Assembly: GCF_008802405.1 (NCBI RefSeq)
Contig: NZ_VZDO01000005.1
Span: forward strand, 1-64,000
Length of the DNA stretch: 64,000 nt
Direction of reading: 5' to 3'
Source of the DNA: Plantimonas leprariae
Lineage (GTDB): Bacteria > Pseudomonadota > Alphaproteobacteria > Rhizobiales > Rhizobiaceae
Below the pieces are notes generated by a model. That model did not search any database. It saw nothing but the letters and a program-made list of their open reading frames with translations, and was not told where the DNA came from. Made by a program: the position numbers and the translations under genes. Of this stretch, positions 2,509 to 17,638 are shown piece after piece; position 1 is the first letter of the stretch, and every line of letters starts with the position of its first letter.

Positions 2509-2847
2509 TCAGGCCTCCAAGGTGGCCTTCCTGAGGGCATCCTGCATGCGTTGCCGCCAGTCACCCCCGGCAGCCTTGAACCGGTCGAGCACGTCCGGCT
2601 CGAGCCTCAGGGTGACCGGCACCTTGGCAGCCTCGCTTCTGGGGCGTCCTCGGCCCCTCTGGGCCTCCGCTCGAGCTGCTCCTAGACCCTCAAAGAAGGT
2701 GGGAGGCAGAACCTCCTGGGCAGGCCTGAGAGTGGCCAGCTCTTCCTCAGTCAGGTCGGGGCTGTCGCTCACGGCCTCCCAGTCCTCCTGGGTATAGCCT
2801 TGGCCAGCCTGGAACTCCTGAGCCGCCTTGCCGCGTGTCGCTGTCAT
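2509..2847 (-). CDS. BrnA-like type II antitoxin
   Basis: The ORF encodes 112 residues. The C-terminal half is typical of BrnA (PF14384): GRGRPRSEAAKVPVTLRLEP followed by DVLDRFKAAGGDWRQRMQDALRKA, a ribbon-helix-helix DNA-binding domain. BrnA normally neutralises the RNase toxin BrnT and represses the operon. No brnT is visible on either side. The ATG at 2847 has its own Shine-Dalgarno (GGAAGG, seven bases upstream), so independent translation is plausible. The frame is also open and continuous with the upstream integrase remnant, so a fused product is possible. Confidence 0.72.
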   Translation of the reverse strand: MTATRGKAAQEFQAGQGYTQEDWEAVSDSPDLTEEELATLRPAQEVLPPTFFEGLGAARAEAQRGRGRPRSEAAKVPVTLRLEPDVLDRFKAAGGDWRQRMQDALRKATLEA

Positions 2848-3909
2848 GGGAGCACCTTCCGTTCCTTGGGCTTGGCTGGCGGCGGCCTCATCAGCGGTGA
2901 AACCCTTGGCCCGCGTCTGGACCACCTCAGCGGCCGGGAATTTCAGCCCTGCGGCTGGGTTCTTCGTGACTAGTCCAGCACCTATGCCAACGTTGAAGAT
3001 CGACCGGACGGCAGCGAGGTGGTTGCGATTGAATGTCCGGGGGATCGATGCTCCCGAGGTGAGAACCGCCTGCCGCCACTCACGGACGTTTTCAGGCGTG
3101 ACGCTCTCGGCGGCGTCGTGTCCCACGAACCCAACGAAGGACCTAATGATGGGCTTCCAACGTCGCGTGGTGGTCCCGGATCGACCGCTCAGCGTTTGTT
3201 CCTCGGTCCAGCGATTAAGCAGGCCGGTGATGGTTTGGCGCGAGCCGATAGGCTTCTGGGGTCTCGCTGACGGCAGCCACGAGGGAAACCGCTGAGCCTT
3301 TGTGGAAGGCGTATAGTCTCCAGCGGCCTCCCGCGCCGTATCCTCCGCAGCGTCGGCTATTGCCTTGGTTGCTTCGATCAGAAGGCGGTCGCGGCATCTT
3401 GGCGTTACCCGCAGTCCCTTGGAGTTTAGGCGCATGTCGGCGGCACGACCAACGGCAAGCTCAAGGGTTTCCCGTTGATAAGCCGTCAGCGTCTCCGTGG
3501 TCATTGCGCCGTCCTCCAACGTGATAAGACAAAGCAGGGAGATTTTTTCCCATGCTTCGGCGCTGCCTGGGTTGTCCTCAAACGGGGCCCGTATGGCCCG
3601 ATAGATCTCCCCTGCGAGAGCGATTGTTTGCCGGTGGCTCAACTCCACTACGTCGCTGCGGAGCCGTGCCCAATGACCCTGGAGGCTTTCATCGGCTTCC
3701 CGATAGCGCAGCTTGGCGGGCCCAATGTCCTTTGTTCGCAGCGACACCTTGACCTGATCCCCAACCCTGACGCGCCAAAGGGTGCCGGCAACGGATAGCT
3801 CGAGTGTCAGCCCTCGGGCCTTACTGACCAAATCAGCCGGCACCCGCTGCTTGAGATAGTAGGTTCCGGTTTCCCGGTGCTTCCAAGGACTAGGCATCGC
3901 CAGGGACAT
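2848..3909 (-). pseudogene. Tyrosine integrase remnant, catalytic domain missing
   Basis: The start MSLAMPSPWKHRETGTYYLK-QRVP is the N-terminus of DUF6538-type phage integrases. A SAM-like core-binding domain follows (ITGLLNRWTEE, RTFNRNHLAAVRSIFNVGI, TKNPAAGLKFP). The sequence reaches KGFTADEAAA, where the catalytic domain should begin, and then runs into the ribosome binding site and start of the BrnA-like gene in the same frame. No R, HxxR or tyrosine motif of the recombinase is present. The gene starts about 80 bases from the inner att copy, as integrases usually do. I infer an in-frame deletion between int and brnA that also removed brnT. Confidence 0.8.
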
Positions 3910-3992
3910 CGTGTGGACCTTAGCTGTGTACCAGCTTCGGCCTCTGATTTCCCTGCTAGACCAATCCTCTAGCGTTTTCAACGCGAGGGAAG

Positions 3993-4037
3993 TGGTGCCG
4001 CTTGCGTGACTCGAACACGCGACCCCATCATTACGAA
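3993..4037 (-). repeat. att copy 2: 45-base tRNA-Thr 3'-end repeat
   Basis: The 45 bases are identical to 33337-33381, the 3' part of tRNA-Thr(CGT) from the anticodon loop to CCA. Divergence begins within the anticodon stem, so this copy cannot be a functional tRNA. It is the junction between islands 1 and 2. Confidence 0.93.
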
Positions 4038-4143
4038 GTATCGGCTGTAATGGCACCATAAGTGAGCATAGGCGCTCTCAAGGTATTGCATACGCTGCGA
4101 TTGCAGGCGATACCTTCTCAGGGATGGAAGCACAAGTGATGAT

Positions 4144-6746: not shown

Positions 6747-7210
6747 TGAGCATCGTCCTGGGTCTCCAGCAGGCCCGCGCCGAACTCTACGACCGCGCCA
6801 TGCCGGAGGGCGACGTTCTCTACATCGACATGGAGAACGGTCACCGCCGCATCCAGCGCCGGGTCGACGCGCTGTTCCCGAACCAGAAAGAGCGGCCGAA
6901 CCTGTCGCGGCTGGAGTTCGTCACGGAAGCACCGGCGCTGAACGAAGGTTTCATCGACGAACTGGAGCGCTGGCGGCAGTCGGTCGACAGGCCGGCGCTG
7001 GTGGTCATCGACGTTTTGCAGCGGATCAAGCCGGCCGGCGTCGCGGCGAGGAACGCGTACGAGAACGATTACTCGATCATGGCCGAGCTGCAGGGCTGGG
7101 CGACCGAGCACGGCGTGGCGGTGGTGGCGCTGCATCATACGCGAAAGGGCGGCGCCGACGACCCGCTGGAAGCGCTATCCGGCTCGAACGGCCTGTCGGC
7201 CTGCGCCGAA
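6746..7210 (+). pseudogene. RepA/RecA-like ATPase fragment (N-terminal and central part)
   Basis: The readable part resembles AAA/RecA-fold RepA-type ATPases: GDVLYIDMENGHRRIQRRVD, the Walker B-like strand ALVVIDVLQRI, and VVALHHTRKGGADDPLEALS followed by GSNGLSA. The Walker A loop expected before GDVLYI is missing. Similarity ends near 7200-7210, where the frame runs into the antisense end of the next gene. A winged-helix tail of the type that ends such proteins lies on the opposite strand at 12769-12933. I infer truncation at both ends, with an inversion at the right end. Confidence 0.7.
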
Positions 7211-8967: not shown

Positions 8968-9186
8968 TCAGGCGGCGTCGCGCGCCGGCAGCACGCCGAC
9001 CATCTCGAAGTCGTTGGCCTGGAAGACGCCCGGAAAGCGCCGGCCGGACGCCATCAGCTTCTCGGCCGCAGCGGTGATGCAGAACTCGTTCGGCGTCACG
9101 CCCGCCCGGTTGGCGGCATCGAACAGCGCCTCGCGAAAGTCGCGGTTCACCCGCGCACCGGATAGGAAAAGGTTGGCAGCAGCCAT
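8968..9186 (-). CDS. Small hypothetical phage-type protein
   Basis: The ORF encodes 72 residues from MAAANLFLSGARVNRDFREA and contains a helical repeat-like stretch (ALFDAANRAGVTPNEFCITA). I do not recognise the family. GGAG precedes the ATG by about eleven bases, and an upstream ATG at 9201 is an alternative. It forms a two-gene unit with the hydrolase. Confidence 0.55.
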   Translation of the reverse strand: MAAANLFLSGARVNRDFREALFDAANRAGVTPNEFCITAAAEKLMASGRRFPGVFQANDFEMVGVLPARDAA

Positions 9187-11471: not shown

Positions 11472-12278
11472 ATGCTCTCATTCATCCGCAACATGGTCGG
11501 CGTGAAGCGCGACCAAGCCGTGAACGGTGCGCTCGAAGCGATCGTGCGATGGGACCCGAAGTCGGCGACGGAGGCGGAACTGCGCACGATGGAGGAGCAT
11601 CTCGACACGCTCGGCCGGCAAGTCGCCGAGGCACGCGTGGCGTTCGACAAGGAGAAGCGCGAGGCGGACGCGATCCAGCGACTGTCGCAGCAGCGCATGG
11701 CCGCGGCCGAAACGCTGCAAAGCCGGATGGATGCCGAAACCGATCCGGCGAAGAAGGGCGAGGTGGAGAGAAGCCTGTCGACGCTGGTCGGCATGCTGGA
11801 GGAGATGGCGCCTGAAATCGAACGTGAGAAGCAGGACGAGACGGATGCCGGCGAGTTCCTTCGATCTCTGGAAGAGGCCTACAATCAGGCGGGCCAGAAG
11901 CTGAAGGGCGCGCGCGACGCGCTGACGAGGGCGCAACGCGACATGGGCCGCGCCGAGCAGCAGCGCGAGATGGCCGAGCGTCGGGCGGAAGCCGCGCGGC
12001 AGGCAGCCGGCCTCTCCGGTGCGACGAGCGGCTTGTCGGTCGCGTTGAAGGCCATGCAGGACAACGCGGCGCGAGATCTGGCGAATGCTGAGGCTGCCAA
12101 TGCGAAGGCGAAGCTTCTGGCGCCGACGCGGCCCGAGCAGGACGACCCGAACATCGCCGCCGCGATGGATCAGGCGCAGGGCAAGCTCGCTGCGCCGACG
12201 AACCTCAATGACCGTCTGGCGGCTTTGCGCCAGAAGCAGATCGGTGGCAGCTCTGTGAAGCAGATCGGTTCATCCTGA
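11472..12278 (+). CDS. PspA/IM30-family coiled-coil protein (YjfJ-like)
   Basis: The ORF encodes 268 mostly helical residues: MLSFIRNMVGVKRDQAVNGA, heptad-rich helices with many Glu/Arg/Ala through residue 200, and a flexible tail rich in Leu and Gln. This is the PspA fold, which oligomerises on damaged inner membrane and preserves proton motive force. CAGGAGGCGAGG precedes the ATG. It is the third gene of the DUF2491-DUF350-PspA operon. Its presence on an island suggests cargo that protects the envelope, perhaps during element transfer or lysis-protein expression. Confidence 0.85.
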   Translation: MLSFIRNMVGVKRDQAVNGALEAIVRWDPKSATEAELRTMEEHLDTLGRQVAEARVAFDKEKREADAIQRLSQQRMAAAETLQSRMDAETDPAKKGEVERSLSTLVGMLEEMAPEIEREKQDETDAGEFLRSLEEAYNQAGQKLKGARDALTRAQRDMGRAEQQREMAERRAEAARQAAGLSGATSGLSVALKAMQDNAARDLANAEAANAKAKLLAPTRPEQDDPNIAAAMDQAQGKLAAPTNLNDRLAALRQKQIGGSSVKQIGSS

Positions 12279-12581
12279 CAACAAGGACGGCTGCGAAGGA
12301 AACGACATGCCGAGGAGCAACAAGTAGCGTTGCACCTCGGCTGCCTCCCAATCGCCGACGCGCAGCTTGTTCAAGGCTCCAAGATCGCCGTGTCGGACCA
12401 TCTCCAGCGCCATCATGTTTATTTCGTGCGGTGCGCCAGGGCAGGACTGCCGGCTGATACCGTGCTGCTTGATCCAACGGCGGATGGTCACCTCCGAACG
12501 TTTGGCGTGAACAGCTGCAAATGGGATCGTCTTCCATTCGCCGGGCGCGACGAGAACGCGATGAGTGGCAACGCCGCTCAT
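12270..12581 (-). CDS. Small helix-turn-helix phage-type protein
   Basis: The ORF encodes 103 residues. The segment WKTIPFAAVHAKRSEVTIRRW then IKQHGISRQSCPGAP looks like a helix-turn-helix followed by a recognition helix. AAGGGGATTGGAC gives a good ribosome binding site before the ATG at 12581. The 3' end overlaps the PspA gene end on the other strand by nine bases. It lies beside the iteron-like repeats and could bind them, but that is inference. Confidence 0.65.
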   Translation of the reverse strand: MSGVATHRVLVAPGEWKTIPFAAVHAKRSEVTIRRWIKQHGISRQSCPGAPHEINMMALEMVRHGDLGALNKLRVGDWEAAEVQRYLLLLGMSFPSQPSLLSG

Positions 12582-12631
12582 GTCCAATCCCCTTTTGGAA
12601 GGCGGTCTTCTGCTTCGCTCAGCCGAACCCC

Positions 12632-12814
12632 CGCTAGGAACGCTAGTATCGCTAGGAAGCCTTACGGCGCAGGGCTTTGCATTCCTAGCGGCGTCGCTAG
12701 GAACGGGGCTATCGCTAGGAATGGCGCTAGGAAAGCGGAGAAGCTGAAATCGCGTGTTCGCAGGGGTTTCACGCATCGTCGGCCTCGTTCCTAGCGATAC
12801 TAGCGTTCCTAGGG
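12632..12814. repeat. Iteron-like CGCTAGGAA array with 27-base inverted repeat
   Basis: Exact CGCTAGGAA copies start at 12632, 12650, 12695, 12713 and 12725. Exact inverted copies (TTCCTAGCG) are at 12682-12690 and 12788-12796. Variants CGCTAGTAT (12641-12649), ATACTAGCG (12797-12805) and TTCCTAGGG (12806-12814) complete two triplets, 12632-12658 and 12788-12814. The triplets are inverted repeats of each other at 26 of 27 positions. The right triplet lies within the coding tail of the ATPase winged helix. Spaced nonamers beside a replication-type ATPase resemble replication iterons. Confidence 0.85.
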
Positions 12815-12933
12815 GTGGTGTAGACGCCACGCAACGGACGCTCCACTTCGCCTGCCTGATGCATCTTCGTCAGCAGGAAACTGACGTTCTTCTCCTTCAT
12901 GCCCGTGGCTGCCACGATGTAGCGATCAGGGCG
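12769..12933 (-). pseudogene. C-terminal winged-helix fragment of an island ATPase
   Basis: The frame reads RYIVAATGMKEKNVSFLLTK then MHQAGEVERPLRGVYTTP and stops at 12769. This pattern (ATGMK-NVSxLLxKMxxAGEVxRxxRGxY) is the winged helix that ends RepA-like ATPases of alphaproteobacterial islands. It begins abruptly at 12933, where the sequence switches to a plus-strand virion gene. It is a candidate tail for the truncated ATPase at 6746. Confidence 0.7.
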
Positions 12934-13328
12934 TCAGCGACAACCTCGCCGACTACGGCAATCGGACGGTGAGCGGTCTGCCGTTCGGCAACTTCTTCAC
13001 CAGCTCGGACTACCAGCAGGCCGATCAGGCGGGACGCGAGTTCCTGGCCTCGGTGCTGCGCAAGGACTCCGGCGCGGCGATCACCGACCAGGAGATGGCG
13101 ATCTACGGCAAGACGTACCTGCCGCAGCCCGGTGATGGCGCGGAGGTGCTGCAGCAGAAGCGCGCGGCTCGGCGGCAAGCTCTCAGCGCGATCGAAACGG
13201 GTCTCGGTCCCGCCCGCACCATGCTTCCGGGCCGGGGCGGTGCGTCGCAGCCGGGTCCGGCGGACGCGCCGCAGGCGCAGACCGGCACGGTGCCGAGCAA
13301 CCTCAAGGGCAAGTACGGGCTGCGCTGA
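12930..13328 (+). pseudogene. C-terminal part of a phage virion protein
   Basis: The frame is open from 12930 with no natural start. It reads DLPLGN-like SGLPFGNFFTSSDYQQADQA, then REFLASVLRKDSGAAITDQE and YGKTYLPQPGDGAEVLQQKR. This Q-A-REF--VLRK-SGAAI-----Y---YLPQPGD pattern is common in C-termini of podophage structural proteins. The N-terminal part is missing at the junction with the ATPase tail. The TGA overlaps the next ATG, so the original operon order with the following gene is kept. A shortened product could start at the GTG at 12969. Confidence 0.7.
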
Positions 13329-16300
13329 TGAGCAATCTCGATCTCACCCGCATCAAGTCGAACGTCTACCGGATGGCGGCGCAGAACGCGCCGGAAGCCG
13401 ACATCGACGCGTACCTCGCCGAGGAAGGCACGACGGCCGACGCAGTGAAGGCCTATGCGCCGAACCTCTCCGGCCAGCAGCTAGAGGCCATCATGCGCGG
13501 CCGGGAGAACGTCGCCAACGGCCGGAAGCCCGAAGGCCACGCCGAGGGCAAGTTCGGTGGCGCGGCGATGAACGCCACGGCCGGCGCCAACGAGGCGCTG
13601 TACGGGGTGCTCGGGGCTCCGGTCGACGCGACGCGCGGGCTGATGAACCTCGGCATCCGCGCCACCAACGCCGTGACAGGTGGGAACGCCCCCGAGCTTC
13701 CCGACACCAGCTTCCTCGGCTCGCGCAACATCGCGGAAACGCTTGGCGGCATCGATCCCCGGCTGGATCCGGCAAACACCGTGGCGCAAACGGAAGGCGA
13801 TCGGGTCGCTCGCGGTGCTGGTGCGGGTGCGGCCGGTGCGATCGTGCCGGAACTGGCGGCGCGCACCCTCATCGAGAAGGGCATCGTCAACGCCTCGCCG
13901 CAGGCCATGCGGCTGGCGGAGGGCGCGTTTGGTCGCTCGGCGACGGGCGGACAGGCAGTCGCCAACGCCGTGATCGGTGCGGCCGGCGGCGCGGGCGGCA
14001 CGGCTGCGGCCGACGCGGCGCCGGAGCCGTTGAAACCACTGGCCGGTCTGCTCGGCGGCATGGCGGCGGGTGCCGGCAGCGCGGGCCTCCTCGGCGTGCC
14101 GATGATCGTCAAGGAAGGTGTTCGGCACATCGGCCGGTACGCCGAGCCGCTGACGCAGGGCGGACGCCAACGCCTCGCTGCGGATCGCCTCCGGTCGTCG
14201 GCGACGGACAGCCAAGCCCTGCGCGATAGTCTGGAGGCCGGCACGCCGGAACTGGTGCCGGGCTCGCAACCGACGACGTTCCAGGCGACGGGCGACATGG
14301 GGATCGGCGCGTTGGAGCGCGGGGCCGCCGCCCGCCAACCCGACCGCTTCATGCAGCGCCGGGCCGAACAGAACGCCGCCCAAGTCGCAGCTATCGGTGC
14401 CATCCAGCCGGACGGCGCACCGGAGACGGTGGTCTCCGCTATTCGGGGCCAGCTCGCCGACATCGACCGCGAGGCCGACGACATTGTGACGCGGGCTCGG
14501 GATGGCGCACGGGCGAGTGCGGATCGCCTTGGCGCGGGGCAGACGCCCGACGCGGCCGGCGCCAGCCTGCGGACCTCGCTGGAGGCGGCGCGGGCGACGG
14601 TGAAGCAGCGGGAACGCGAGCTGTGGAACGCGGTCGACCCGGACGGCACGATGACGCTCGGCGTCGGCACGGTGAAGGGCGAGGCGGACAGCCTGCTCGG
14701 CGGCATCCCGAAGTCGGCGAAGCAGCCGGACGGCGAGGAGATGGCGATCTACGGCGTCGTCGGGCAGTACGGCGACGCCATGCCGTTGTCGGAAGTCACC
14801 GCGCTGTCCTCTCGGGTAAAGGCGGCGATGCGGGCCGAGCGTATGGCGAACGGCGAAAGCCCGGCCTATGCCCGGATGGCCAAGCTGTCCTCCGCTATCC
14901 ACGCCGACCTTGACGGCGCCGTCGCCGGCAGGGTTCAACAGGAGGCGGAAGCGGTCGCTCGCGGCGAGATGCGCGAGGAAGACACATTCGCTGCGAACTT
15001 CCGACGCGCTCAGGAAGAATGGCTTGCACAACGAGAAGCCGGATCACAGCAAGCCACCGGAACGCTTGGCGGAGAAGGTCCGTCAGGGTTTAGAGCGAAT
15101 GGCGCCGGAGGACCACGGTCCCTTTCTGGCATGGCTGGAGCAGAAGGCGAAACGGGAAGGCGACTTCCCGATGCTCCGAGCAATCCGCGACTACCGGGCG
15201 ATGACGTCGGGATCGGGTTCGACCGAGCCGCCCAAGAGCGCCTGACCGCTGCCCGTGCGGCAACGTCCGACCGTCTTTCGACCTTCGACAACCCGACGCT
15301 CCGGCCGCTGCGCCAGCGTCCGGCAACGAACGCCCCCTACGCGGTGCCGGATAGCTCGGTGCCGGCGCGGATCTTCTTCCCGCAGGCCAAATCCTTCGAC
15401 GCTATCCAGTCGTATCGCCGGGCGGTCGGCGATGGGCCGGCGCTGGACACCCTGACCGGCTACGCCGTCGACCGGGCCAGGCGGGCGGCGCTGCGCGACG
15501 ACGGCACCTTCGATCCCACCCGGCTCGCCGCCTGGCGCCGCTCCCACGCCGACGCGCTCCGGGCCTTCCCCGAACTCGACGCCGGTCTTGCCGACGCTTC
15601 CGCTGCCGCCAATACGCTCGCCCATGTCGTGCAGCGCCAGAACGCAGCACGCGACGATGCGGCCCGCGGCGTGCTCGGTCGCCTCCTCGGCCTCGACGAT
15701 CCCTCTGATGTGACGCGCACAGTCGGCGCCGTCTTCCAGCGCCAGGATGCGGCGGCGCAGATGCTGCGCCTTCGCCACGCCATTCGCGGCAGCGAGCCGG
15801 CGCAGCGTGGATTGCGGAAGGCCATCGTCGACCACATCGCCGGCCGGTTCGTCGGGAACACCGAGGCCGGCACCTCCGGCATCGGCACGGTGAAGTCGGA
15901 CGGCTTCCAGAGCTTCGTCCGGCAGAACGGCGCGGCGCTTCGAACGGCCGGCTTCTCGGACGCCGAGATCGGCACCATGCAGCGGGTCGCCGCCGACCTG
16001 CAGCGCGCCAACCGCTCGGTCGCCTCGGTGAAGCTGCCGGGCGGCTCGAACACCGTGCAGGACGCCATTCAGGCCGGCAAGCTCGGCAGCCAGCCGACGC
16101 TCCTGTCCCGCATCTTCGCCAACGTGCCCACGGCGGCCGGCGGCGCGGGCGGGTTCATGCTCGGCGGCGGTCCCATCTCGGCGGCAGTCGGCGCGGTGGG
16201 CGCGAAGACCATCGCCGATATCCGCCGCGCCGGCATCGAGAGCATCGAGGATCTGGTGGCCGATGCGTTGCTCAACCCGACCCGGGCCAAGCTGCTGCTC

Positions 16301-16435
16301 GCGACGCCCGCCCGCAAGACCGAGCGGGCGACCTGGGAACTACTCGGCCAGTACTACCGCCGGGCGGCGACGGTCGGTGCGGTGGCGGGACCGAACCAGG
16401 CTGAACCCGAACAGCGCGGGGCGGTGCCCCGATGA
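13328..16435 (+). CDS. Large phage internal virion-type protein
   Basis: The ORF encodes 1035 Ala/Gly/Arg-rich residues. A short helical N-terminus, AQNAPEADIDAYLAEEGTTA, is followed by Gly/Ala-rich hydrophobic stretches (GAGAGAAGAIVPELAARTLI; LLGGMAAGAGSAGLLGVPMI). The C-terminal half has the pattern VPARIFFPQAKSFDAIQSYR and AVGDGPALDTLTGYAVDRAR, typical of large internal or DNA-ejection proteins of podophages. A final hydrophobic part (GGAGGFMLGGGPISAAVGAV) follows. It is translationally coupled to both neighbours. Around 15010-15215 another plus frame looks equally protein-like, which is discussed as a finding. Confidence 0.75.
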   Translation: MSNLDLTRIKSNVYRMAAQNAPEADIDAYLAEEGTTADAVKAYAPNLSGQQLEAIMRGRENVANGRKPEGHAEGKFGGAAMNATAGANEALYGVLGAPVDATRGLMNLGIRATNAVTGGNAPELPDTSFLGSRNIAETLGGIDPRLDPANTVAQTEGDRVARGAGAGAAGAIVPELAARTLIEKGIVNASPQAMRLAEGAFGRSATGGQAVANAVIGAAGGAGGTAAADAAPEPLKPLAGLLGGMAAGAGSAGLLGVPMIVKEGVRHIGRYAEPLTQGGRQRLAADRLRSSATDSQALRDSLEAGTPELVPGSQPTTFQATGDMGIGALERGAAARQPDRFMQRRAEQNAAQVAAIGAIQPDGAPETVVSAIRGQLADIDREADDIVTRARDGARASADRLGAGQTPDAAGASLRTSLEAARATVKQRERELWNAVDPDGTMTLGVGTVKGEADSLLGGIPKSAKQPDGEEMAIYGVVGQYGDAMPLSEVTALSSRVKAAMRAERMANGESPAYARMAKLSSAIHADLDGAVAGRVQQEAEAVARGEMREEDTFAANFRRAQEEWLAQREAGSQQATGTLGGEGPSGFRANGAGGPRSLSGMAGAEGETGRRLPDAPSNPRLPGDDVGIGFDRAAQERLTAARAATSDRLSTFDNPTLRPLRQRPATNAPYAVPDSSVPARIFFPQAKSFDAIQSYRRAVGDGPALDTLTGYAVDRARRAALRDDGTFDPTRLAAWRRSHADALRAFPELDAGLADASAAANTLAHVVQRQNAARDDAARGVLGRLLGLDDPSDVTRTVGAVFQRQDAAAQMLRLRHAIRGSEPAQRGLRKAIVDHIAGRFVGNTEAGTSGIGTVKSDGFQSFVRQNGAALRTAGFSDAEIGTMQRVAADLQRANRSVASVKLPGGSNTVQDAIQAGKLGSQPTLLSRIFANVPTAAGGAGGFMLGGGPISAAVGAVGAKTIADIRRAGIESIEDLVADALLNPTRAKLLLATPARKTERATWELLGQYYRRAATVGAVAGPNQAEPEQRGAVPR

Positions 16436-16985
16436 GCGTCCAGACGGTACAGGACGACGTTGCGGCCTCCGTGCTCGGCGATCTGATGGGGATCTGGCTG
16501 GCGCAGCAGCCATCCACCTACACGGCCTGCCGGCGGCTGCATACGGCGCTGACGCCGCTGTCGGATGCCTGGGTCCACGCCCTTGCCGGAGCCTTAAGGA
16601 CCGACAACACGCCGGACGCCGAACCTCTGGCGCAGCACATCGACGCCTTCGTGGCGACGTTTGACGACCTCGCCGACGAGGGGCGCGAGCTGGCCGACTG
16701 CGGCATTGCCGACAACGGGCTGATGACGCTGCCGGACTGGATCGACTGGCAGTGTTTCATCGCCGACACCTACGTGAAGGATAAGGCACGCATCCGACGC
16801 GCCGCGTGTTCTCGACTGTCGTTCGGCAGGAGCACGAAGCCGAGGACGAGGCACGGGCCTTCGCCACACTCGGCCAGCATCCCGGGCCGGATGACATGAT
16901 CGTCCGCCGCGTCATCGTGCCTTGGCCGATCGCCGACCTGGTGCCGGCCGACTTCATTCCGCGAGCGACAGGACCTAGGGGCTGA
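16432..16985 (+). pseudogene. Hypothetical phage gene, probably frameshifted
   Basis: The first frame (16432-16899) starts in an ATGA overlap with the virion gene and reads ordinary protein to WQCFIADTYVKDKA, then turns into an Arg/Ser/Pro-rich tail. The third frame, open from 16785, continues as RRVFSTVVRQEHEAEDEARA, FATLGQHPGPDDMIVRRVIV and PWPIADLVPADFIPRATG to a TGA at 16983-16985, immediately before the next gene. I infer a one- or two-base indel near 16785-16800. Alternatively the second part is a separate gene from the GTG at 16806. Confidence 0.6.
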
Positions 16986-16986
16986 T

Positions 16987-17193
16987 ATGGGAACGCTGGA
17001 AAACCGCGTGGCGAAGCTCGAACAGCGCAGCGTCACCGATCTGCCGCAGTATGGTCGCGTCTTCATGTGTACCGGCCGCATGGGCCACGAGGACGAGGAC
17101 CGGGCCGAACAGCTCGCCGAGATGGGCGTGGTACAGCGGGTCGACGACCTCGTGATCCAGCTTGTCGGTTACGCGAAGCCGCCAGCCGTTTGA
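16987..17193 (+). CDS. Small hypothetical phage protein
   Basis: The ORF encodes 68 residues beginning MGTLENRVAKLEQR, a short coiled-coil start, followed by an acidic middle. It begins one base after the preceding stop and ends 26 bases before the next gene, so it is part of the same unit. I do not recognise the family. Confidence 0.6.
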   Translation: MGTLENRVAKLEQRSVTDLPQYGRVFMCTGRMGHEDEDRAEQLAEMGVVQRVDDLVIQLVGYAKPPAV

Positions 17194-17218
17194 AAAACAA
17201 TCAGAGGAAATCAGACGG

Positions 17219-17638
17219 ATGGCGCGCGGTGGAGCCCGTGACGGAGCAGGAAGACCGGCGGGCGTCCCGAACCGCCGGACAGCGGATGCTGTCGCCGAAC
17301 TGATGGGTTCCGGTCTGTCGCCGCTCGCCTTCCTGACGAACCTCTATCGAGACGAGACGGCTGACCTGAAGGACCGCGCTTGGGCGGCGAACGCCGTCGC
17401 TCCCTTCGTACATCCGCGCCTCGCGCCGACGCAGCAGCGCGTCACCATCGCGTTGCCGGACACCTCGACGGCGGACGGCGTTCGCGATGCCATCGCTGCC
17501 GTGATCGAGGCTGTGTCCTACGGGGACTTATCGCCGGCCGAGGCGCAGCAGATCGTCGCCGTCATCGAGGCGCAGCGGAAGGCCATCGAGACCGCCGACA
17601 TCCTGCCAAGGCTGGAGAAGCTGGAGGCGGCGAAGTGA
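17219..17638 (+). CDS. Phage terminase-small-subunit-like DNA-binding protein
   Basis: The ORF encodes 139 residues. The N-terminus MARGGARDGAGRPAGVPNRR is the glycine/arginine hook seen in small terminase and DUF5681-type proteins. A helical part with LKDRAWAANAVAPFVHPRLA follows, with a C-terminal coiled helix. AGAGGAA lies about ten bases before the ATG. No large terminase follows, because an IS1595-type transposase fragment begins directly after it, so the phage module may have been cut here. Confidence 0.6.
   Translation: MARGGARDGAGRPAGVPNRRTADAVAELMGSGLSPLAFLTNLYRDETADLKDRAWAANAVAPFVHPRLAPTQQRVTIALPDTSTADGVRDAIAAVIEAVSYGDLSPAEAQQIVAVIEAQRKAIETADILPRLEKLEAAK

Follow-up and report, generated by a model that had tools for sequence, protein, structure and literature searches.

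A nonamer array at the end of a broken AAA_25 helicase gene of Plantimonas leprariae is very probably the relic of a prophage replication origin

A stretch of 64,000 nucleotides of Plantimonas leprariae, called the window below, contains a dense array of short repeats between the end of a helicase gene and a small helix-turn-helix (HTH) gene. The locus raises the questions what this array is and which protein would read it. An earlier note, made from the sequence alone, had proposed an iteron origin of an excised integrative element or a dense repressor array.

The array and its surroundings in the window

The array was found as the earlier note had described it, with ten CGCTAGGAA-type nonamers at 12632-12814, seven of them exact, one with one mismatch and two with two mismatches (Table 1). 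The two 27-nt outer triplets are inverted copies of each other, and the inversion can be extended to 32 nt with 94% identity (12627-12658 / 12788-12819). They enclose four central copies of mixed orientation (-,+,+,+). The largest 9-mer family in 12582-12881 had 8 copies with one mismatch allowed, versus a mean of 2.5 and a maximum of 5 copies in 500 dinucleotide shuffles of this stretch. The 300-nt tile with the array, again with 8 copies, was also the top tile of the window, and the other tiles had at most 6. The GC content of the gap between the triplets was 0.612 and, thus, not lower than that of the adjoining ATPase tail stretch (0.586).

The earlier note had named a nonamer scattered through the chromosome as an observation against its reading. 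The exact CGCTAGGAA occurs 19 times in the 4.77-Mb genome, i.e., 7 times in the array and 12 times as a single copy elsewhere, whereas the reversed pattern, used as a control, occurs 85 times, showing that the nonamer is not a common chromosomal repeat. No second copy of the whole array was found in the remainder of the genome, and no close DNA relatives of 12260-12960 were found in the phage and plasmid collections.

Table 1. Positions of the nonamers and of the adjoining genes in the window
Feature	Position	Strand	Remark
Small HTH gene	12270..12581	-	follows the array, strand shared with the ATPase tail
Last codons of AAA_25/RepA-type helicase (most of winged helix and tail)	12769..12920	-	stop codon 12769-12771
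Separate helicase fragment	6806..7210	+	about residues 98-231 of homologue L014, 66% identity
Exact CGCTAGGAA	12632, 12650, 12695, 12713, 12725	+	pattern match
Exact CGCTAGGAA	12682, 12788	-	pattern match
CGCTAGGAA type, one mismatch	12806	-	
CGCTAGGAA type, two mismatches	12641	+	CGCTAGTAT
CGCTAGGAA type, two mismatches	12797	-	
Outer iteron triplet 1	12632..12658	+	CGCTAGGAA CGCTAGTAT CGCTAGGAA
Central iteron, exact CGCTAGGAA	12682..12690	-	
Central iteron, exact CGCTAGGAA	12695..12703	+	
Central iteron, exact CGCTAGGAA	12713..12721	+	
Central iteron, exact CGCTAGGAA	12725..12733	+	
Outer iteron triplet 2, inverted	12788..12814	-	within ATPase coding tail, encodes ...RNASIARNE

The array overlaps and follows the coding end of the ATPase gene, and the HTH gene adjoins it, as had been stated. 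The replication-type ATPase was confirmed as the neighbour of the array, but its gene is truncated. The homology of the tail to the intact homologue L014 begins only at 12918 (L014 residue 300), indicating that the gene is cut off upstream, and about 50 codons remain. The second triplet lies inside these codons, and seven copies lie beyond the stop codon. The further fragment at 6806-7210 may derive from a different copy. We weighed one inversion as the link between the two ATPase fragments but did not adopt it, because residues of about 232-299 are absent. In addition, the middle ATPase fragment ends in 50 bp that match a copy on contig C4 of the same genome at 92%, and, thus, the ATPase pieces of the window may stem from different prophages.

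The surrounding genes gave few assignments. For the HTH protein neither a Pfam family (E 0.01) nor a PHROGs family (E 0.05) was detected, tblastn searches in phages with this protein and the ATPase tail gave no matches, and the ATPase tail had merely four weak matches in plasmids. The stretch 12969-13328 matches phrog_35431 (E 5.8e-9), 13328-16435 weakly matches a minor tail protein, and the neighbouring genes of the region have weak or no matches to phage families. The region, in which the helicase gene is broken, was taken as decayed prophage material and does not look like an intact, excisable integrative element.

Two further observations were made in the window. The 516-aa ORF 2509-4059 (-) combines a part that resembles integrases (phrog_1, DUF6538) with a BrnA antitoxin domain at its C-terminus, and thus joins a recombinase and an antitoxin domain in one reading frame. 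A segment of 159 bp (8993-9151) is 76-79% identical to segments of both C12 (L008) and C22 (L007), two contigs that also carry homologues of the HTH gene.

The same nonamer at an intact gene and the same layout with other nonamers

A pattern search with three mismatches allowed was performed in 198 genomes of the family and matched two, this genome and G177. The second match is on contig CANJKV010000022.1 of an Aurantimonadaceae MAG of another genus (locus L013). Its ATPase has 355 aa and an AAA_25 domain (Pfam E 1.5e-29), and its winged-helix matches are below the curated cut-offs. The nonamers of the window recur in frame at the end of the protein (ARNARNARNE); two single copies and then an inverted set come after them. 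An array absent from all islands with the complete ATPase was the second observation that the earlier note had named against its reading; in fact, the array lies beside the only complete ATPase for which this nonamer was found, and thus this test does not refute it. The L013 element also contains a topoisomerase/primase-family gene (E 5.3e-56) and a tail tape-measure gene (E 2.6e-106), and due to the latter it looks like a phage rather than a satellite. Exact patterns of the CGCTAGGAA triplet were not found in viral contigs, so that this nonamer is known from two genomes only. A viral scan with the single L013 ATPase as query gave no matches, whereas scans with alignments did find homologues.

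Homologues of the helicase were gathered from genomes and predicted viral contigs. A first inspection revealed inverted sets of 9-nt repeats after the winged helix with other letters, namely CGATAACNN, CGATAAGA, CGGTAACA, CTGTCACAC, CGCTAACAT and more. For the test, 9-mer families were counted in the 300 nt that follow the winged helix, and the largest one was given a p value from dinucleotide shuffles. The first set comprised 71 non-redundant loci (shared 4-mers at most 70%), 69 of which had enough sequence. A significant family was present in 52 of these 69 loci at p<=0.01 and in 57 at p<=0.05, while three control stretches of the same loci gave 1/71, 1/71 and 1/68. The later set came from two further scans, from which relatives of the first set had been removed; here 30 of 52 loci were significant at p<=0.01 and 40 at p<=0.05 (controls 1/54, 1/54 and 1/49). 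Both sets together thus yielded 82 of 121 loci with a significant 9-mer family versus 6 of 367 control stretches. The remaining 39 loci missed p<=0.01; the test is strict, and L015, which has a visible diverged set, scored p 0.42.

The geometry was similar in many of the 82 arrays. The first copy preceded the stop codon in 54 of them. The commonest spacing was 9, which was the best 7-mer lag in 45 loci, and the next was 8 with 7 loci. In 64 of 74 cases the largest gap between opposite copies had a lower GC content than the ORF (mean difference 0.11, p 1.6e-10), which may partly reflect the usual difference between coding and other DNA. Five loci (L115, L117, L119, L121, L124) have large arrays of 11-15 nonamers, which form long tandem runs on the two strands within an extended helicase ORF.

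As comparators, 28 helicase loci were used for which the alignment ends before the winged helix. In eight of them a repeat family reached p<=0.01 in one of two stretches that surround or follow the stop codon, and, thus, the tie of the repeats to a detected winged helix is not exclusive; the long unaligned tails of the comparators may hold another domain. In L089 and L095, in which no winged helix was detected, one-strand tandem repeats with a strict 18-nt spacing follow the helicase stop codon and are perhaps another type of origin.

Four database records were inspected as well. Clear inverted sets were seen in pATHE01 of Caldicellulosiruptor bescii (NC_012036.1, 8,291 bp) and in a Tsukamurella plasmid, and of two further plasmid or phage records L147 showed a partial run and L146 no clear array. 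In pATHE01, Prim-Pol, AAA_25 and winged-helix domains are united in one protein, and a primase domain (Prim-Pol or Toprim) is often on the same protein as the AAA_25 helicase. Six tandem copies of ATTCACTCT directly follow the winged helix and an inverted triplet lies about 100 nt further, all within the gene. The Tsukamurella plasmid has a perfect 26-nt inverted pair that starts 5 nt past the end of the helicase gene. The two plasmids extend the layout to Bacillota and Actinomycetota, besides the alphaproteobacterial loci. A vector paper on C. bescii was considered as a functional test and set aside, because the part of it available to us concerns pBAS2, not the 8.3-kb plasmid.

The survey bears on two alternative readings of the repeats. 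The first is that the inverted triplets act as a structure, i.e., a large hairpin or cruciform that serves as nicking site, terminator or stem-loop origin as in pRN1, in the available text on which a 100-nt stem-loop behind the replication gene is described as needed (PMC4234260). Indeed, the single strand 12627-12819 was predicted to fold at -61.7 kcal/mol versus a shuffle mean of -34.3 (z -9.0), but strong folding is expected from any inverted repeat. Protein sites account better than a stem for the central and extra copies in mixed orientation, for the 9-bp phasing and for the extended tandem runs on a single strand (six copies in pATHE01 and more in L121 and L117). The outermost copies are opposite in 59 of the 82 arrays but on the same strand in 23. 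A structural role is, therefore, regarded as very improbable. The second is that the nonamers are merely a low-complexity repeat of the protein tail with RNA-type triplets. One triplet is in frame in the tail, and short repeats are also encoded in the tails of relatives, such as IHSIHSIHS in pATHE01. However, seven of the ten copies in the window are behind the stop codon, and copies occur on both strands in 79 of the 82 loci, which is not expected from selection on a protein. This largely refutes the coding repeat, to which we give almost no credence.

The winged helix as candidate reader of the repeats

For the repressor array of the earlier note, the HTH protein would have to bind the nonamers and thereby shut off its own operon or the prophage. 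Its gene is directly downstream of the array and has a good ribosome binding site. Furthermore, a second, also broken helicase of the AAA_25 family is encoded in the same genome (C4:133752-134153, L029), and there the order of ATPase, inverted array, in this case of the CGATAAGA type, and HTH homologue is repeated. L029 contains another 843 bp that match 16791-17630 of the window at 83.5%, showing that both loci share further prophage material. The HTH homologue on C4 (47%) contains a stop, the one on C22 is broken (75% DNA identity), and the one on C12 directly follows a gene read from the sequence as terminase large subunit. Of these three homologues only that on C4 has an array; none was found around those on C12 and C22, which makes the HTH protein an unlikely reader and the repressor array a weak rival. 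In addition, the two HTH-array pairs of the genome have different nonamers, a consensus scan revealed no sigma-70-like promoter in 12500-13000, and among 143 loci no HTH homologue (E<=0.01) was found other than those of this genome, yet the arrays are widespread. Taken together, an operator array is considered improbable.

The helicase itself offers another candidate. The best PDB match of the family profile was 1g8y (RSF1010 RepA, E 1.4e-8), and a Foldseek search gave 1nlf (E 5.1e-10) and DnaB 4esv (E 2.8e-12). The model of the L014 helicase (AlphaFold2, 47 sequences) has a mean pLDDT of 90.9, and its C-terminal domain shows the order helix-helix-helix-strand-strand of a winged helix. The similarity of the iterons correlated with winged-helix identity when core identity was kept constant (partial r 0.247, permutation p 0.0005, n 54), and the reverse test, with core identity and a fixed winged helix, gave a partial r of 0.06 (p 0.03). 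Thus, the iteron sequence tracks the winged-helix sequence better than the helicase-core sequence. The strongest co-varying column corresponds to L014 S305 (partial r 0.315), which sits in the third, i.e., the recognition helix of the model (301-313); the second-best column (0.287) is outside this helix.

An acidic residue at the S305 position was accompanied by TAAG in 9 of 9 cases and a basic one by TAAC in 16 of 17 cases (Fisher p 3.2e-6, for a rule noticed on the same data that gave the p value, with loci related by descent and 27 of 54 arrays not scorable). One N in the first set was also associated with TAAC. In the later set all eight scorable acidic or basic cases fitted the rule (acidic 1:0, basic 7:0, p 0.125), while N and Q went both ways. 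The window and L013 have S at this position and TAGG in the nonamer. Acidic groups would face the C, and basic groups the G of the other strand. From the co-variation and the model, the likely reader of the repeats is the C-terminal winged helix of the helicase, not the HTH protein.

Known systems and the proposed origin

The earlier note knew no named system with this nonamer. The layout does have a counterpart, the rep-ori module of the SaPI/PICI elements, although its helicase is different. In the consulted parts of two papers, the origin of this module lies directly behind the helicase gene, consists of two sets of short iterons around an AT-rich stretch, and is recognised by the C-terminal part of the helicase (PMC6092414, PMC7581432). 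The present loci resemble this description in the array within 300 nt of the winged-helix end in 82 of 121 loci versus 6 of 367 controls, and in the opposite outermost copies (59/82) and the gap GC below that of the ORF (64/74; the gap of the window itself is not AT-richer). The C-terminal winged helix of the present helicases is the putative iteron reader, to which the co-variation and the structure model point indirectly. The helicases of SaPI/PICI, and Cch2 of SCCmec, are described there with DUF927 or Primase_Cterm/D5 domains (PMC7581432), in contrast to the AAA_25 domain of the present ones; no Pfam match to DUF927 or D5 was obtained for L013, L144, L145, L035, L055 and L119. SaPI/PICI modules are carried by helper-dependent satellites; the L013 element has a tail tape-measure gene, and other carriers include plasmids. 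As one defining feature, the helicase type, differs, the loci were not filed as PICI modules. Judged by their sequences, the present loci, which come from predicted viral contigs, prophages and two annotated plasmids, have the SaPI/PICI organisation, as far as it is described in these sources, with a helicase of a different fold.

The RecA-fold hexameric helicase core is shared with RSF1010 (IncQ) RepA, as the 1g8y match indicates. The RSF1010 iterons are bound by a separate RepC, while the helicases described here have a fused winged helix and iterons at the end of their own gene. The alpha protein of phage P4 is a primase-helicase whose origin-binding winged helix is C-terminal, and its iterons are short; its helicase is of a different superfamily, and ori1 and crr are separated from each other. 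The pRN1 replicon with ORF904 also has an essential element directly behind the primase-helicase gene, a stem-loop instead of iterons, and its authors found no iterons according to the available text (PMC4234260). PLE RepA was considered as a relative and rejected, because it belongs to another family according to the part of the source available. No description of AAA_25 helicases with iterons at the gene end was found in the literature open without subscription.

Position, layout, recurrence, the diversity of the nonamers, the co-variation and the confident winged-helix model lead to the reading that the array is very probably the relic replication origin of a decayed prophage, which would be read by the winged helix of the helicase itself. 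This keeps the iteron origin of the earlier note and sharpens it, as the same nonamer is present at the intact L013 gene and the layout recurs with other nonamers. The winged helices of a RecA/DnaB-fold AAA_25 helicase would bind 9-bp iterons in the last codons of their gene and just behind it. Two inverted iteron sets, typically triplets, would bring helicase rings onto both flanks of a more AT-rich gap, which would then open, and replication would begin with neither a separate initiator nor a separate loader. The parts of this mechanism that we infer are the binding, the loading of the rings, the opening of the strands and the direction of the forks. In the window the helicase gene is broken, and the array is thus probably inactive unless a related helicase is supplied in trans; it probably does not fire at present.

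With slightly more confidence than doubt, we propose that these loci form a widespread, unnamed class of self-contained replicon, in which a DnaB/RepA-fold helicase with its own winged-helix reader and its own origin at the gene end makes up one gene-sized cassette in phages and plasmids from three or more bacterial phyla, and in which iterons and recognition helix co-change by a readable residue-to-base rule. If so, orphan arrays like that of the window could be decoys for related invading phages. If binding were confirmed, the origins of many uncharacterised phages and plasmids would be readable from the end of the helicase gene, and the winged helices, which form a natural series together with their matching 9-bp sites, would be a test bed for a recognition code as well as for initiation without a separate loader.
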